Source of the DNA: Mortierella sp. BCC40632
Lineage: Eukaryota > Mortierellomycota > Mortierellomycetes > Mortierellales > Mortierellaceae
Assembly (NCBI GenBank): GCA_011634665.1
Contig: WAEK01000005.1
Location: 3,109,001-3,173,000 of the forward strand
Direction: 5' to 3'
DNA: 64,000 bases
Shown: piece after piece, positions 28,861 through 47,532 of the stretch
Position numbering within the stretch: the first letter of the stretch is position 1
How the letters are laid out: every line of letters begins with the position of its first letter
Translations under genes and position numbers: made by a program
The notes under the pieces: model-generated
What the model saw: only the letters and a program-made list of their open reading frames with translations
The model's database searches: none
Told to the model about the DNA's origin: nothing

Positions 28861-29579
28861 AAAGCTGGGGTCGAAAAAGAATGTCGAGCTGAACAAAGAT
28901 ACGCAAAAAAAAAAAAAGTTTCTTGGATAAGAAGAGTCCTTTGGATGCATTGCCCTTGACTGGCCAACTAATAAAGGTACTGGCACTGGCTGGGACGTAC
29001 TGTAGGTTCTCACGTCTTGTTGGTAGAGGCTGGTGTTATTTAAACTCTTTCTAGGGTAAGGACTGTTCTCTTCCGTACGCATCCATGTTGGCGAAGAGAG
29101 GAGAGGACTCACTAGTGCCCCCCTCCCCCTTTTACTTTCTGTGTTGAAATGGGAGCCCTACTCTCCCTATATTTTGAGAAACAATCAAGTCTATGTTCAT
29201 GTCAAGTCAGGTGTAAAGGGATATCTAACTTTGCCCTTCCATTTTAACCATTCATCTCAAAGAGCTCACCTGACTCTGAACATGCATGGTTATCACCAGC
29301 ATTACCAAGGCCAAAAGGACCCTCGCGTCTTATTTTAGGCCATCCAACCGTATATACTGCCTTCCTTCGGAGCCACGTCTTTTTCACTCAAGACTAGACT
29401 AAGTGGGGCCAACTATAGGAAGTTGAAGGATTATGCCTGTTTTTGAATTTGTCCAATATCAACAGTTTTAATAGGATGGGGAAGGGAGGAGGGCCTGCTG
29501 GATACAACTAGAACAATCATATGACAAGCTCTCGTCAACTGTAAAAACTGCGATTTAACGAGTTTGTCGCCTTGGATGC

Positions 29580-29786
29580 TTAGCAGCAATACTGCCAGAC
29601 ACCATCGACGTAGCATCCAATGAAGCAAGGGGTGTGGTTGCAGCATCCCATGGATTCCTGCTTCAAGCGGTTCTCATGGAATCGGTATGGGGTCGTGTCG
29701 GATTCACCACATGGGACGGCGTTGACCATGGTCGAGGCAATGATGACAGCGACCAAAACCGAAAGCTTGGAGCGAAGGGCAATCAT
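29580..29786 (-). CDS. Small secreted cysteine-rich peptide (left copy)
   Basis: A single 68-residue frame. Residues 1-23 form a classical signal peptide (basic start MIALRSK, hydrophobic core, cleavage expected after VNA). The rest is a 22-residue linker with one Cys (VPCGESDTT...) and a compact cysteine module CC-x4-C-x3-C-x8-CC ending at the stop (GCCNHTPCFIGC, then YVDGVWQYCC). The spacing CC/C/C/CC resembles disulfide-rich defence or toxin peptides, but homology is not implied and the function is unknown. Upstream in-frame codons lack an ATG. A TATA box lies 223 bp before the start. The right copy differs only in the last loop. Confidence 0.72.
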   Translation of the reverse strand: MIALRSKLSVLVAVIIASTMVNAVPCGESDTTPYRFHENRLKQESMGCCNHTPCFIGCYVDGVWQYCC

Positions 29787-30008
29787 GGCTGAGTTGAGAG
29801 TGGGGGTGCTAAGAATGTTGGATGAGATGAGGAAGTAGATATGATAGATTTGGTTAGATGAAGCCAAGAAGCTGACAAGCTGAATTGAAGTCACAATTCT
29901 TTACTTTACAGAGTTAAGTGGAGAGTTGAGAGTAGGGTTGGAGGTCTGAAGTCTTTGAGAAGTGGTCAGAAGGCTGGAGATACAGGATATCGGAGAGGCG
30001 CGGCCTCT

Positions 30009-30015
30009 ATTTATA
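30009..30015 (-). promoter_or_regulatory. TATA box of the left peptide gene
   Basis: TATAAAT on the minus strand within GCATATAAATAGAGGCCG lies 223 bp before the ATG. The same element stands at the equivalent place in the right arm, so both copies keep a promoter. Confidence 0.6.
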
Positions 30016-30314
30016 TGCGATGAGGATGTTCAGAAAAAGTAAGAGTTGCGTGTAAAATCAAAGAGAGAGAGAGAGGTAGGAAGGAGTCGAAGCGTGGGTA
30101 ACAAAAAATCAGGAGTGTGTAAATGCATGCATGAAGCATGAATAACGAAGATGATCTTGGAGTGACCCGTGGTGGTGTGGGAACTGAAGATGCGAGGGGT
30201 AAGGCGTGTTGTGCAACAGGTTTTCGGCTGGGTGCAATTCCATCTGGATTATCAACTTACACGGGATTCCCTATAAGCTTGCACGGGTTTCTTGTAAGAT
30301 AGTCTACTGCAAAC

Positions 30315-31005
30315 AAATGCTTCTCATCCATTAGCATAGTGAGCCAAATCACGAAAGTCTGAAAGAATAAAATGCTGATCTTTTTGATAAGTGGTTTTTG
30401 TGCATGGACCGTCTATTGGACAGGTTTCCTTAGGTCCCTAGGATATTGGACAGGTTTCCCTAGGTCCCTAGGAAATCCTGATTCTTCTTCCTATCAGCAT
30501 AGTGGGTTGAACCGCAGACAGTTCTGACCTGCCAAATATAAAGTCTAGCCAGTGTTCTCGCGTCATCTGACAAACGTGCAGCGGCTGGACAGACTACCCT
30601 ATTGACTGTGCAGCTCAGAGCTGTTTGTGGTTTGATCCACGCTAACGGATTATTGAAAGTGCTTTTCTTTATTTTTTATTCTTTTTTATTTTTTTTTGCA
30701 GGATTTCCTAGGGAAAACTATGCAAATAGATGGTCTATGCGCAAAAACCACATCTCGAGATTGAAATTTTCTGCAAGTCGCATGACATGCAGACTGCTTA
30801 GCGTGAGCCAAACATCAGTGACTTTTTTATGTAGCGTGCATGACCGGCAGTCCATCATGCTTCAAGGCACTTTTTTTATCTTTTTAGCAAGTGACTGCTA
30901 CGCATGGACCATCTGTTTGGTTTGACTAGGAAATCCTGCAAACACACGTTTTTCATTCATCAGCATGGATTGAACTGCAAACATTTCTATGTTGCCAAAT
31001 AAAGT
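30315..31005. repeat. Cluster of degenerate ~150-bp repeat units in both orientations
   Basis: A unit built of GCATGGACC(A/G)TCT, CTAGGAAATCCTGCAAAC and a tail CATCAGCATGGATTGAAC..GCAAAC..TCT..GTTGCCAAATA occurs as copies or partial copies. They lie at about 30315-30370, 30386-30545, 30563-30754 (reverse orientation) and 30880-31005, and are mirrored in the right arm. A more diverged copy is at about 31285-31395 in the spacer. A 30-bp piece, GGACAGGTTTCC(T/C)TAGGTCCCTAGG, is doubled at 30417-30473. Confidence 0.6.
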
Positions 31006-31008
31006 TCG

Positions 31009-31610
31009 CTTTTTTCCAGTTATGAACTTTCGCGGCAACTTAAGGGAGGGGGGTTTTTTTTGCTTGTGTTACCAAGAACGAAGCGCACCTGGGTTTATTC
31101 ATTTCCTTTAAAAATGTTGTTGGACAACACATGGCGCACCAGTGCTATACTTTAAAATGTGGTTGTTGAACAATCCTGTTGCAATGTCCCCAGAGCAACA
31201 CAAGTTTTCCTTCGCATTTTTTTGTCCTCGGTTGATTATTTTGCATTTCAGAAATCTTTGTTCTTTTCGACGGAGGAGTTATTGAGCATGGACCGCCTTT
31301 TTTTTGCTTGACTTTCCCCATGGAATCCTACAGACAAGCATTTTCTTATCAGTCAATATGGCGGGCAAGGCTATAAACACTTGTGAAATGACTCTACACA
31401 CAAGAAATGCTCAAAAACTTATACAAGACTAGAAATGAAGATTCAAACTTGAAGAAACAAATTATATTTTTGTTCTCGAAGTATAGTCTTCGACAAAGGT
31501 TTGAGCTTAATTGGGGACCCTGCTCTAATAAGTGGTCTTTGCGCAGATCACACCTTCATATTGGGATCAGCTTCACCCTGTCAGATGACGCGAAAGCTGA
31601 AGCTGAACCT
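31009..31610. other. Spacer of the inverted repeat
   Basis: About 600 bp of non-palindromic sequence separates the arms. It contains one diverged unit of the internal repeat family and no coding frame of interest. Confidence 0.5.
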
Positions 31611-32680
31611 TATTGGGCAACATAGAAACGTTTGCAGTTCAATCCATGCTGATGAATGAAAAACGTGTGTTTGCAGGATTTCCTAGTCAAACCAAACAGA
31701 TGGTCCATGCGTAGCAGTCACTTGCTAAAAAGATAAAAAAAGTGCCTTGAAGCATGATGGACTGCCGGTCATGCACGCTACATAAAAAAGTCACTGATGT
31801 TTGGCTCACGCTAAGCAGTCTGCATGTCATGCGACTTGCAGAAAATTTCAATCTCGAGATGTGGTTTTTGCGCATAGACCATCTATTTGCATAGTTTTCC
31901 CTAGGAAATCCTGCAAAAAAAAATAAAAAAGAATAAAAAATAAAGAAAAGCACTTTCAATAATCCGTTAGCGTGGATCAAACCACAAACAGCTCTGAGCT
32001 GCACAGTCAATAGGGTAGTCTGTCCAGCCGCTGCACGTTTGTCAGATGACGCGAGAACACTGGCTAGACTTTATATTTGGCAGGTCAGAACTGTCTGCGG
32101 TTCAACCCACTATGCTGATAGGAAGAAGAAGCAGGATTTCCTAGGGACCTAGGGAAACCTGTCCAATATCCGAGGGACCTAAGGAAACCTGTCCAATAGA
32201 CGGTCCATGCACAAAAAACCACTTATCAAAAAGATCAGCATCTTATTCTTTCAGACTTTTGTGGTTTGGCTCACTATGCTAATGGATGAGAAGCAGTAGA
32301 CTATCTCGCAGGAAGCTCGTACAAATTCATAGAGAAACTCGTGTAAGTTGACAGTCCAAGTGCAATTGCGCCTAGTCGAAAAAAGATAGAAAGGGGAAAA
32401 AAAAAGCCAAGTGTACAACGCGCCTCAATCCCCCGGCATCTTCAGTTCCCACACCACCACGGGTCACTCCAAGATCATCTTCGTTATTCATGCTTCATGC
32501 ATGCATTCCTGATTTTTTTGTTACCCTATGCTTCGGCTATTTCTTAGTCACCTGAAGTCTGTTCCTACGCTCTCTCTCCCTATCTCTTGCTCTACCTTCG
32601 GTCTTCAACCCCTAGAAAGTCCCTAGTCCGCTTCCTTTGAACTTACACGCAATTTTTACTTTTTCTGAACACTCATCGCA

Positions 32681-32687
32681 TATAAAT
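32681..32687 (+). promoter_or_regulatory. TATA box of the right peptide gene
   Basis: TATAAAT in GCATATAAATAGAGGCCG lies 229 bp before the ATG at 32910. It mirrors the left copy. Confidence 0.6.
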
Positions 32688-32909
32688 AGAGGCCGCACCT
32701 CTCCGATATCCTGTATCTCCAGCCTTCTGACCACTTCTCAAAAACTTCAGACCTCCAACCCTACTCTCAACTCTCCACTTAACTCTGTAAAGTAAAGAAT
32801 TGTGACTTCAATTCAGCTTGTCAGCTCCTTGACTTCATCTAACCAAATCTATCATATCTACTTCCTCATCTCATCCAACATTCTTAGCACCCCCACTCTC
32901 AACTCAGCC

Positions 32910-33116
32910 ATGATTGCCCTTCGCTCCAAGCTTTCGGTTTTGGTCGCTGTCATCATTGCCTCGACCATGGTCAACGCCGTCCCATGTGGTGAATCCGACA
33001 CGACCCCATACCGATTCCATGAGAACCGCTTGAAGCAGGAATCCATGGGATGCTGCAACCACACCCCTTGCTTCATTGGATGCTATGTCGGTGGCACCTG
33101 GTACAACTGCTGCTAA
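32910..33116 (+). CDS. Small secreted cysteine-rich peptide (right copy)
   Basis: A 68-residue paralogue of the left-arm peptide. The first 177 coding bases are identical to the left copy, covering the signal peptide, linker and first four cysteines of the module. In the following 24 bases there are nine differences, which change four residues in the last loop (YVGGTWYNCC here). All cysteines are kept. The 5' leader and 3' flank are again very similar. Both genes therefore look intact and expressed from equivalent promoters, with change confined to one loop. The function is unknown; a secreted effector, antimicrobial or toxin-like role is inference. Confidence 0.72.
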   Translation: MIALRSKLSVLVAVIIASTMVNAVPCGESDTTPYRFHENRLKQESMGCCNHTPCFIGCYVGGTWYNCC

Positions 33117-33246
33117 GCATCCAAGGCGACAAACTCGTTAAATCGCAGTTTTTACAGTTGACGAGGGCTTGTCATATGATTGTTCTAGTTGTATCCAGTA
33201 GCTCTTCTCCCGCCTCCCTATCTCATTAAAACTGCTGATATTGTAC

Positions 33247-34001
33247 AAAAAAAAAAAAAAAAAAAGGGAGAAGGGGTGGTGTGGAGTTTTACACAGTGAT
33301 TTTGACCAAGGTACTCCTTTTCTTTTCTTTGGGAGTTTTCTATACTGGGGCTACAGATCAACAGTACTCGAGGCAAGTCCACGAAAAAAGAACGCGTCTT
33401 GATGGGGATGGGGAGGGGGGGAGGTGGGGAGGAGGGGGGAGGTGGGAGGTAGAAAATAGGTATTCCAACCAAAGATTTGAAAAAAGTGGACTGTGTAGTA
33501 AAAGAGGCGTGCAAGTCAAATAGGGTCGTGTTCAAGGTGTGGGGTTTATAACGAAAAAAAAGTTATGAAAGAGTATTCATTATACTCGAGAGAGGTGTAG
33601 TAGATTAACCATGTTTCAGACTTATGGGGGGACTAGAGAGCATGTACAAAGCGAGAGCAAGTGTAATGACTCTGGGAATACTAAGGCATAGGTCCGAAAA
33701 GGAGATTGATGAGCTTTATATCGTGCATCTTTGTAGAAGAAGGTGTTAGAATATGTCGTACGTTTCTTTATTCTTTATTAAACAACCGCCCCTTTCATAC
33801 GCATTCAGAAACTATCCAGGACAGTGTCAGTAGTATTCGAAGAAGTTCTATATTCGAAAGCTAGTAGAACTTTGAGAACACAATGCTAAAGTGCCAGCTA
33901 TCTTGTGTAAGTGATCATTGGAATGAAATTCAGATTGAGGTGAATGCTGCAGTATAGCTCGTTCGCTCGGAGGGTCGTGGAAAATTGGCTGAATTTGGGG
34001 C
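33247..34001. other. Intergenic flank of the inverted repeat
   Basis: An A tract at about 33247-33264, a G-rich block near 33405-33445 and AT-rich sequence. No gene is seen; the 3' end may belong to the decayed element that follows. Confidence 0.4.
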
Positions 34002-40065: not shown

Positions 40066-40584
40066 TTACATATGCTTGGACGCGTGTTGTGCAACACCGG
40101 CTAGAACAGCTCCGACGCTCAGTCCCAGCCAAAACCGATATCCCGAGAGCCACATGGATACAAGACGGCCTGTAGATAGAGCACCTATCTGCCTGAGCAT
40201 AGTTACGCTATCAGAGCAGATCCACTCTTCCGCAATCTTTCCGTTCTCGAATCGATATATTTCATGACTGAGATAGTCGATTTTTTTACCCGTAGGGGAG
40301 CAGCCAAGGAACTCACCCAGATGGGTACCTTGGATTCTCACACGCACGGCCACCTTGTCGTCTTCTGATACGGCATCCTCCACATGAACTTTAACATCGG
40401 GAATAGCTGTAAGGAGTGTCTTGGCATGCTTGCGCCAGGCATCATGGCCACGCTTTTGGTGGGGCATCTCGGCAATATTGATGATAAAGTCGGGGCGCAT
40501 CAGGCTGAGACAGCCATCAATGTTTCCAGCATTCAAATGCTTGAAAGCCTGCTTCAGGATGCTAAGATTTGTTATGGGTGGCAT
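40066..40584 (-). CDS. SnoaL-like (NTF2-fold) protein with C-terminal hydrophobic tail
   Basis: A single exon of 172 residues. Residues 1-125 fit the SnoaL-like ester/polyketide cyclase fold: helical start (LKQAFKHLNAGNIDGCLSLM), the HDAWRKHAKTLLTAIPDVKV block, VRIQGTHLGEFLG and SHEIYRFENGKIAEEW. The last 30 residues hold a hydrophobic segment (FWLGLSVGAVLAGVAQHA) suggesting a tail anchor, unusual for this fold. SnoaL-like proteins include cyclases, hydrolases and non-enzymatic members, so no reaction is assigned. A TATA box lies about 140 bp upstream. No biosynthetic neighbours are seen. Confidence 0.75.
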   Translation of the reverse strand: MPPITNLSILKQAFKHLNAGNIDGCLSLMRPDFIINIAEMPHQKRGHDAWRKHAKTLLTAIPDVKVHVEDAVSEDDKVAVRVRIQGTHLGEFLGCSPTGKKIDYLSHEIYRFENGKIAEEWICSDSVTMLRQIGALSTGRLVSMWLSGYRFWLGLSVGAVLAGVAQHASKHM

Positions 40585-44236: not shown

Positions 44237-44395
44237 TTGCCTGAATCCTCCTTCAGTGAACTCTTTCTTTCTTTTTCACTCACGCACTCCCTCTCACATT
44301 GGTCGTCTCTCTTTTATCACTGGCCGCCAGGACCTCTCCCCCCCCCCTCACTCTTCCCCAATCTTCCACAGCTTGCCAATTGCTCTGTTGCCACC
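43202..44395. promoter_or_regulatory. Divergent region between HEM25 and NAGLU genes
   Basis: 1.2 kb between two outward-pointing starts. Plus-strand frames at 43390-44096 have no domain. A (CT)n block at about 44181-44232 and a further CT-rich leader precede the NAGLU start, as before other genes here. No TATA box is evident. Confidence 0.35.
44181..44232. repeat. (CT)n microsatellite
   Basis: About 51 bp of CT dinucleotide lies in the probable 5' UTR or promoter of the NAGLU gene. Confidence 0.9.
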
Positions 44396-47300
44396 ATGAC
44401 GGCTGTGCTCATTTTAGCTCTCCTGGCTGTCGCAAGCACCGCCTTTGCTTCACCAATCCGAATTGAGGCTGCGCCGCACCTTTCACAGATTTCCAAGCAG
44501 AGCACTGGTCTCCAGCCTCCTTTGCCTCTTTCTTTTGTAAAGTCACCATTCTCTTCCTCTTCTTCCACTTGGTCACTCTCACACCCAGCTCAGGACTCGT
44601 TATTATCCTCGCCCTCAATTGCCATGTCGTCCGAGTCCCCAGAAAATACCCCAGACAGAACGTCATCCCCGGCACTGCGCCTTGACAAGCGTCAAGCGCC
44701 CGCCGCAAGCGAGGAGCCCCTTTATGCCCTCGTCAAAAGACTCTTGCCGGCCCCTTACCACTCTGCTTTTCTCTTCAGGCTCACGCCTGGCCTGACCTCT
44801 CCCTCTACAACCCATGTCCATGATACCTTTCGTATCTCCAACAGCAACGGCACTGAGGCTCGGATTGTAGTCGAGGCCAGTACTCTATCTGGGCTGGGTG
44901 CAGGCCTGAGCTACTATCTCAAGCAAGTCTGTCATGTAGAGATGACGTGGAGTGGCGACCGATTCAACGAGCTTCCACTGGAACCCCCCGTTATCCCTGA
45001 AGGTCTGGCGGGGTCCGATGGAATCATGCAAGCAAGCTTTGTCCCTTGGCGTTACTATATGAACGTGGTCACATATGGCTATTCGTTCGCCTTTTGGGAC
45101 TGGACTCGATGGGAGCGAGAGTTGGACTGGATGGTACTCAGTGGAGTCAACATGGCTCTGGCGATGGTTGGGCAGGAGTATGTACTACGACAAATGTATG
45201 AGAGTATGGGATTAAGTCGAGAGCAACTCAATGGGTTCTTTTCTGGTCCGGCGTTCATGCCATGGCAGCGAATGGGCAACATTCAAGGCATGTGGTCAGC
45301 TAACCAGAGTAGCATTCTGTTCAACAACGACTGGATTGACTCGCAGTGGGAGCTCCAACAGAAGTGAGTACTTTTTTTTTTAAAAAAAAAAAAAAAAAAA
45401 AAATTGTAGCACGAGAAACAGTGACCCAGAAAACTCACAGGCTTTGCTCAAAATATGGCTTACCCCAAATAGGATCATGCTAAGAATGCACGAGTTCAAT
45501 ATCACGGCCATCATGCCGGCCTTTAACGGATTCGTGCCAAAGGATATGGCGGTGCTCTTCCCTGAATCCAAGTTCAGTAAATCGTCAGGCTGGATTGGCT
45601 TTGCAGAGGATTATACAGGATTGACCTATGTTCCACCAACAGAGCCACTTTTTGCCAACATCACTCAAAAGTTTATCCAACTCCAAAAGACTTTGTACTC
45701 TGACGTTTCACCTTCCAACTATTATCTATTGGATCTTTACAACGAACTTCGTCCATCCTGTACCACAGAGGAGTGTCTAAAGACGATCACCAAAAATGTC
45801 ATGACAGCCTTAAAGACAGCGGATCCCGAGGCGATTTGGGTGATGCAGGGTTGGTTCCTCGTGACCCGGGATATCTGGAAGCCACCTCAGACAAAGGCTT
45901 TCTTTGACGGCATTCGCGAGGTCAACGGAGGACGGGACGCATTTGTGATCGACCTGTTCTCGGATGTTATCCCTATCTGGAAAGAAACTGATGCGTACTT
46001 TGGCATTGACTGGGGTTGGAGCATGTAGGTTCGGGTTGGGGAATGAGTATGGGTTTTTTTTTTGTTTGTTGACAATAGTTGAAATTGCTCTATTTTTACT
46101 TTTCGTTAGGCTAAACAACTTTGGCGGAGGGCAGGGTCTCTACGGCACACTCCCAACACTCCTTACAGAGCCACTCGAAGGCTTCAAACGCTATCCAAAG
46201 ACAATGCGTGGAATGGGCATCACTATGGAGGGTATCAACAATAACGAGTTTCTGTATCAGATCATCCTTGACATTCCTTGGCAAACCGTAAGCTCTAACC
46301 CTAGTACGCACGAACTTCAGCCAATCAATGGCCAAGAGCGCCTCGAGGCCTATATCAAGCGTCGCTATGGTCCGAAACAGACCTCCTCTACCGTGCTTCA
46401 GGCGTGGACGACTCTCAGTCAGACTGTTTGGGATTGCCGAACAAAGCAAATGAGCCAATCAAAAACTTTCCTGGAGAATATACCAGCGACCAACATGACA
46501 CGGCCAGGATTCATGACTACAATGTTCTGGTACGATCAAAATAAGGTCGTTGAATCATGGCGTTTACTCGTCCAGTCTACAGAAACAAAAGAATCAAAAG
46601 CTCGTCGAGGCAACAGTGTGATCCAGAATGCATTCAAGGAGGTCTTGTTGGTCACTAGTGGAGCCAAGCCCGCCACTGTCAAGAGATCCATCACATTGAG
46701 CTCGGCCAAGAAAATGTTTTGGGATGCGTTCAGAAGGTCCCCGGTTCAAGTGCAATCCACGGCCTCCTCGGTACTGTCCCTTTCAACCGTCAAGAGAGAC
46801 GATCCGACTCCACAGTCACTCCCAAGTGAATCTGAGCTCCCTCTGAATGTCTCTAGCTTCCGATACGACCTGGTCGATGTTTCCAGAGAAGTGATGTTGG
46901 CCATTGTTCTCCCTGGTTTGCATAGAGAAGTGATGGATGCTTATTTTGAGAAAGATAAGGCTCGACTTCGATCTATGGGAGATTTGCTTCTGGAGGCCAT
47001 TCTTGACACAGACCGGATCCTTTCCACCCACACCCATTTCATGCTTGGTGCGTGGATAAACGAGGCCCGTGTCTCTGCACAAGTGGTCTCTGGTCGAACG
47101 ACTGATTCAGCATATTTGGGTGAGTATGCAGATTACCTCGAGCACAATTCCCGGAACCAGGTCACTTGGTGGGGCCCAAGAGGTCAAAAAGTCCTGGCCG
47201 ACTATGGTTCGAAGCAATGGGGTGGACTTGCGAAGGAGTATTATTATCCACGATGGAAAATGTTTGTGGACGGATTGAAGAATGCTGTCAAGAATGGTCA

Positions 47301-47532
47301 GAGATTGGACTATGATCAGTATCTGAGAGATGTGCTTGTGATGGAGACCCGATGGCAAGAAGAAACTTGGAACAGTACATCGGAAAAGTATCCGATCAAG
47401 GCTGTGGAGAGGACAGTCGATGTTGCACAGGACCTTTGGGATCGTTGGGGACAGGCTGCGATCCGGCTCGCTCGGGACAGTATCATACCCAAAAACGGAG
47501 CCATGCCCAATGATTTTGTGATGCCATCTTAG
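44396..47532 (+). CDS. NAGLU: Alpha-N-acetylglucosaminidase, GH89
   Basis: Exons 44396..45363, 45473..46024 and 46110..47532 keep frame and encode 980 residues. The ATG lies in GCCACCATGA and starts a signal peptide (MTAVLILALLAVASTAFASP), so the enzyme is vacuolar or secreted. After a Ser/Pro-rich stretch to about residue 110 come the NAGLU N-terminal domain and the GH89 catalytic domain. Visible blocks are YYMNVVTYGYSFAFWDWTRW, WMVLSGVNMALAMVGQE, FSGPAFMPWQRMGNIQG, LYNELRPS (Glu about 414) and GITMEGINNNEF (Glu about 547); the two Glu fit the catalytic pair of the human enzyme. It releases terminal alpha-linked GlcNAc. The protein is longer than human NAGLU because of the N-terminal stretch and an insertion around 690-770. 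Intron 1 carries a T10A22 tract. Confidence 0.92.

Follow-up and report, generated by a model that had tools for sequence, protein, structure and literature searches.

A mirrored pair of cysteine-rich peptide genes in Mortierella sp. BCC40632, with a diverged last loop that has probably escaped patchy homogenization of an old inverted repeat

Two Divergently Transcribed Peptide Genes and Their Products

The window, meaning the whole 64,000-nucleotide stretch of DNA that was analysed (C5:3109001-3173000), belongs to a genome assembly of 49.9 Mb in 62 contigs. It contains two copies, A and B, of a short peptide gene, which lie on the same contig in inverted orientation and are transcribed divergently (Table 1). 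Residues 1–23 of the product were read as a putative signal peptide, by eye and with a hydrophobicity filter. The remaining part, of about 45 residues, contains seven Cys (26, 48, 49, 54, 58, 67 and 68), and the last six of these, between residues 48 and 68, are arranged as CC-C-C-CC. From this odd number of Cys, a dimer, an unpaired Cys or processing behind Cys26 would be expected. The initial annotation had proposed a secreted, disulfide-rich peptide, and the sequence read by eye fits this description. It also fits the small secreted cysteine-rich type of protein, which would be taxonomically restricted as far as searched. Most likely, the product would be exported as a disulfide-stabilised peptide, about 45 residues long, that targets another organism or works at the cell surface, and the two copies may supply two variants of the last loop.

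Upstream of copy A, the motif TATAAATA at 32681..32688 (+), 222 bases 5′ of the ATG, was noticed by eye and may be its TATA box; the mirror position in copy B is given in Table 1. Structure predictions for both copies were too poor for use, with mean pLDDT values of 45.8 and 51.0. Both low-confidence models draw strands near residues 57–60 and 63–66, to which no weight can be given at that pLDDT.

Table 1. Positions of the peptide genes, the inverted repeat and its segments (window coordinates).
Feature	Position	Strand	Description and basis
Peptide gene, copy A	32910..33116	+	68 codons and stop; translation
Peptide gene, copy B	29580..29786	-	As copy A except G61D, T63V, Y65Q and N66Y; translation, base-by-base comparison
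Copy B mirror of the possible TATA box TATAAATA	30008-30015	-	By eye
Diverged tract of copy A	33084..33107	+	Codons 59-66, last inter-Cys loop; nine differences to copy B
Diverged tract of copy B	29589..29612	-	Codons 59-66, last inter-Cys loop; nine differences to copy A
Arm A of inverted repeat	31605..33246	+	BLASTN, repeat finder; limits as used in the model
Arm B of inverted repeat	29451..31007	-	BLASTN, repeat finder; limits as used in the model
Diverged segment, non-coding	32306..32436	.	30 events in 107 columns; two-state model
Diverged segment, non-coding, poorly alignable	32507..32656	.	38 events in 83 columns; two-state model
Diverged segment, the loop tract	33085-33108	.	9 events in 24 columns; two-state model
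Diverged segment, 3′ flank, outer arm end	33198..33246	.	13 events in 49 columns; two-state model
501-base identical run, non-coding	31630..32130	.	Run that long in 0 of 10,000 shuffles
Identical run of 253 bases, covering the leader region and codons 1-58	32833..33085	.	Run that long in 0 of 10,000 shuffles

Mosaic Structure of the Inverted Repeat

The likeness of the two copies reaches far upstream of both genes, beyond what the initial annotation described, in the form of an inverted repeat of about 1.6 kb with 597 bases separating its arms. The repeat finder reported complementary blocks of 613 nt at 99% and of 530 nt at 97%, together with shorter ones, and the sequence beyond the arms aligns poorly between the two sides. 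This layout also bears on the reading of the pair as an assembly artefact, in which two alleles or a chimaera would have been written as two genes. No supporting sign of such an error was found. The copies are inverted and their surroundings align poorly, substitutions as well as indels separate the arms in several segments, and the contig reaches at least 3.17 Mb, all of which makes an artefact extremely improbable.

Along the arms, stretches of identity, the longest of 501 and 253 bases, alternate with segments that differ at 27–46% of columns. A two-state model of the differences along the arms scored −286.7 against −386.9 for a single rate, a gain of about 100 log units. This model places 90 events in the 263 columns of four diverged segments and 16 events in the remaining 1290 columns. 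The loop tract is one of the four diverged segments and the other three are non-coding. For the poorly alignable one, the event count (38/83) is uncertain because of the quality of the alignment there, and the segment was left out of the density comparison given below. The largest identical run obtained among 10,000 shuffles was 174 bases. Since the 501-base run is non-coding, protein constraint is no explanation for its identity. For individual blocks, local constraint may be an alternative cause, by making the rate of change heterogeneous.

A 72-base run that is identical between the arms (32436-32507, mirror 30122-30193) lies upstream of each gene, with a diverged segment on either side. 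A search of the whole genome with the 81-base stretch 32430-32510 found it in the two arms only. Its identity may reflect conversion or a regulatory function.

Differences between the Two Coding Sequences

Base-by-base comparison showed no difference between the copies in coding bases 1–176. The identical first stretch described in the initial annotation was thus confirmed in kind and corrected in length, which had been given as 177 bases. The nine differences described there were all recovered, at coding bases 177–198 in codons 59, 61, 62, 63, 65 and 66, and they change four residues between the last single Cys and the terminal Cys-Cys pair, also as described. The count of two silent changes is right at the level of codons (59 and 62), and the Nei–Gojobori pathway count, in which codons with two changes are split, gives 3 silent and 6 replacement changes. 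The return to matching sequence after the tract was found as well: codons 67–68 (Cys-Cys) and the stop codon do not differ, and the 58 bases past the tract (33108 to 33165) are identical up to the next difference. The reading frame, all Cys and Trp64 are retained in both copies. When the nine differences were shuffled over the 207 bases, all of them fell within 22 bases in 0 of 100,000 trials.

Silent and Replacement Change

In codons 59–66, the differences affect about 3 of 4.67 silent and 6 of 19.33 replacement sites (Nei–Gojobori), compared with 0 of 40 silent and 0 of 134 replacement sites in codons 1–58. Silent change is thereby higher in the tract than in the rest of the gene (Fisher's test on rounded counts, p 0.0007). 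Within the tract, pS is 0.64 and pN is 0.31, corresponding to a dS of 1.46 and a dN of 0.40 on very few sites. Replacement divergence is therefore not above silent divergence in the variable part, and the difference between the two is not significant (p 0.33), a comparison with weak power because only 4.67 silent sites are available in these codons. The tract is also not denser in changes than other diverged parts of the arms, with 9 in 24 columns versus 43 in 156 for two other diverged segments together (p 0.34).

The position of the island was evaluated with 20,000 arms drawn from the fitted mosaic. An island of 10–30 columns fell anywhere in the coding sequence in 13% of these arms and within codons 58–67 in 0.8%, a post hoc figure by which a purely neutral placement is somewhat unlikely. 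As many as 33% of the islands in the fitted mosaic are as short as the loop tract.

The initial annotation had compared the burst of change in one loop with the pattern of diversifying defence or venom-type peptides. On such a reading, the duplication would be recent and diversifying selection would have driven new point mutations in the loop to fixation. Such selection is consistent with the 6 replacements among the nine changes by the pathway count, with their confinement to one inter-Cys loop whose Cys are retained, and with the rarity of a simulated island in exactly this place. It is nevertheless very unlikely here, and the claim was not supported, since silent change in the tract is no lower than replacement change and segments diverged to a similar density also occur in non-coding parts of the arms. 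Selection for new loop residues alone would not raise silent divergence. The simplest reading is that the tract is as old as the duplication and that what calls for an explanation is the identity on either side of it, which conversion between the arms would provide. In addition, the non-coding arm segments are diverged by 27–46%, and therefore the duplication is not recent.

Probable Patchy Homogenization and a Retained Island

The two genes probably descend from an old inverted duplication that was patchily homogenised by conversion between its arms, with the loop tract as a segment that escaped. The duplication would have given two divergently transcribed copies of one peptide gene. Conversion between the arms would then have homogenised long blocks recently, namely the region just upstream, the leader, codons 1–58 and part of the 3′ flank, and the escaped segments, the last-loop tract among them, would keep the old divergence of roughly 27–46%. 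The observations behind this account are the inverted repeat with its mosaic, a high divergence at silent sites within the tract, and the lack of a third copy in searches of the assembly. The locus holds two inverted copies on one contig in which near-identical blocks alternate with divergence, silent and non-coding sites included. Silent divergence inside identical DNA points to a tract with an older history within recently homogenised DNA. We infer that the mosaic is a product of conversion and the tract an old island that was retained, not imported. A 24-base island within identical DNA requires two conversions, or one patchy conversion. The comparison rests on two sequences, from which neither the dates nor the direction of conversion can be read. 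The pattern is real, and its cause appears mostly ordinary.

Since the island matches one Cys loop closely, there is room for selection that may keep the two loops apart. Conversion would then produce the mosaic while selection removes the conversions that overwrite the loop, so that two loop forms persist. The sole coding island does fit one inter-Cys loop, at a place reached far less often in the simulated arms than the coding sequence as a whole, and the reading frame, Cys and Trp64 have been kept. Against this, the simulated frequency for that loop was obtained post hoc and neutral islands of this length are common. Taken together, we regard this combination of conversion and selection as rather doubtful, and the fit of the island to the Cys loop merits attention in sister strains.

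Search for a Third Copy and for Other Mechanisms

Local gene conversion from an unseen third copy had been offered in the initial annotation as another origin of the same picture. The part that concerns gene conversion is supported, and the third copy or donor was not found in the assembly. Searches of the genome with the full protein, with its mature and its signal-plus-linker parts, and with the gene DNA recovered only copies A and B. Each 24-base tract occurs once genome-wide, with up to 3 mismatches allowed. Where a family of paralogues with a constant signal and a variable mature part would have many members, two copies were found in the genome. The protein and gene-DNA searches score the best candidates only, which means that a strongly diverged paralogue may have escaped them, and the assembly of 62 contigs may be incomplete.

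The corresponding explanation holds that a third, diverged paralogue, which has been lost, is unassembled or resides in another strain, donated the tract to one copy through a short conversion. Silent and replacement sites diverged alike in a short tract within identical DNA are the trace expected of such an import. On the other hand, protein-part and DNA searches returned only the two copies, each with a unique tract, and the three non-coding segments that have diverged likewise would need a separate explanation. An import is for these reasons unlikely, and the sequence data are most simply read as supporting conversion between the two arms.

Three further mechanisms were considered and rejected. 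For a local template switch, stretches of 10–20 bases from the tracts, short flanks included, were absent elsewhere in 28900-34000 on either strand, and the next-best ungapped match to each tract within the whole window covers 17 of 24 bases. Repeat-induced point mutation left no directional signature, since copy A has the C or G in 27 of the transitions and copy B in 26. In transitions, the base after C made a CpA in 13 of 53 cases and a CpG in 9 of 53, versus 34% and 14% in the arms, which is no strong excess. As for a mobile element, no full copy of the inner part of the repeat (31630-32300) was found elsewhere in the genome; the one match outside the locus spans 35 bases, in an A-rich stretch on C3.

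The substitutions between the arms are mostly transitions, a high share without clear sequence context or direction. Transitions account for 53 of 66 substitutions outside the poorly aligned 32499-32635, for 74 of 98 when it is included and for 7 of 9 in the tract.

Homologue Searches

A search of the protein collection with the peptide returned no homologue, though many fungi of this kind are covered. This negative result is weak because three shared 5-residue words are needed for a match and short genes are often unannotated. Pfam gave nothing for either copy. In the PDB, the full peptide had one chance-level match to a kinesin (E 0.37) and the C-terminal 28 residues had none. Pattern searches fitted 29 stretches in viral contigs and 63 in prokaryote contigs, none of which was a relative. 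Among the papers listed for secreted or antimicrobial peptides of Mortierella and relatives, none was found on this peptide. The peptide is thus an orphan as far as these searches reach, and they would overlook unannotated or diverged fungal relatives.

Comparison with Known Systems

Inverted copies with homogenised blocks have been described at other fungal loci. In Candida tropicalis, the inverted repeats of centromeres are homogenised (PMC4741521), and for the pheromone gene copies of Cryptococcus, repair by gene conversion has been proposed, with human Y palindromes as a comparison (PMC12510652). In both papers, homogenisation is inferred or proposed, at loci other than this one. The arms described here are alike in combining inverted copies with homogenised blocks and differ in being patchy, with old divergence between the blocks, and in lying around an orphan peptide gene.

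The CC-C-C-CC arrangement is pattern III of the M-superfamily conotoxins, whose groups M1–M5 are named by the residues in the third loop (PMC4278219). Conotoxin precursors of this kind share with the present peptide a signal sequence, a linker and the C-terminal Cys pattern, and a constant precursor beside a variable mature loop is comparable to what was found here. Unlike conotoxins, the peptide is fungal, has an extra Cys at residue 26 and a third loop of 8 residues, gives no PDB or Pfam match, and has changed at silent sites too. The likeness is at most convergence, and no membership is claimed. Fungal small secreted cysteine-rich proteins of the effector or antimicrobial type show the same shortness, signal peptide, Cys richness and, as searched, taxonomic restriction; no sequence relative was found.

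A more speculative view, to which we give little credence, is that the mirrored genes serve to diversify the peptide into two variants, in which conversion between the arms keeps expression, export and scaffold identical and selection shields one binding loop from being overwritten. If true, the pair would parallel, in a fungus, the constant/hypervariable layout known from venom precursors of animals, and the peptide family would be new as far as searched. More generally, a loop that differs strongly while the rest of the gene is identical need not have evolved fast: silent sites and the surrounding repeat indicate here an old divergence that conversion has not erased. If strains repeatedly keep their loops apart, this uncharacterised secreted peptide of Mortierellaceae would provide a clean natural case in which to test whether selection acts against gene conversion.

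Other Features of the Window

Both arms contain a 30-base unit in head-to-tail repeat (30414-30473 and 32136-32195, 97% and 90% alike), which is rich in CCTAGG-type palindromes. Relaxed self-comparison of 30300-32310 also revealed older, weaker internal repeats, such as 31579-31686 versus 32040-32144, with 68% over 114 columns. Judging from these letters, the spacer between the genes looks as if it had grown from a repeated unit.

Comparison of the whole window with Rfam gave 0 matches, and a 5.8S rRNA model had no match in the genome. Among the neighbouring genes, Atg22 has its best match in Lunasporangiospora selenospora (Mortierellaceae), with 78% identity over 95%, followed by 65% for the next one (60 matches listed, 7997 candidates scored). 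The other named matches belong to genera of Mortierellaceae, and the host is accordingly placed in this family. A SnoaL-like protein with the polyketide cyclase fold is encoded at 40066-40584 (-). Pieces of an alpha-N-acetylglucosaminidase (NAGLU), comprising the N-terminal, barrel and C-terminal domains, lie at 44237-47532 in two reading frames and are probably exons.
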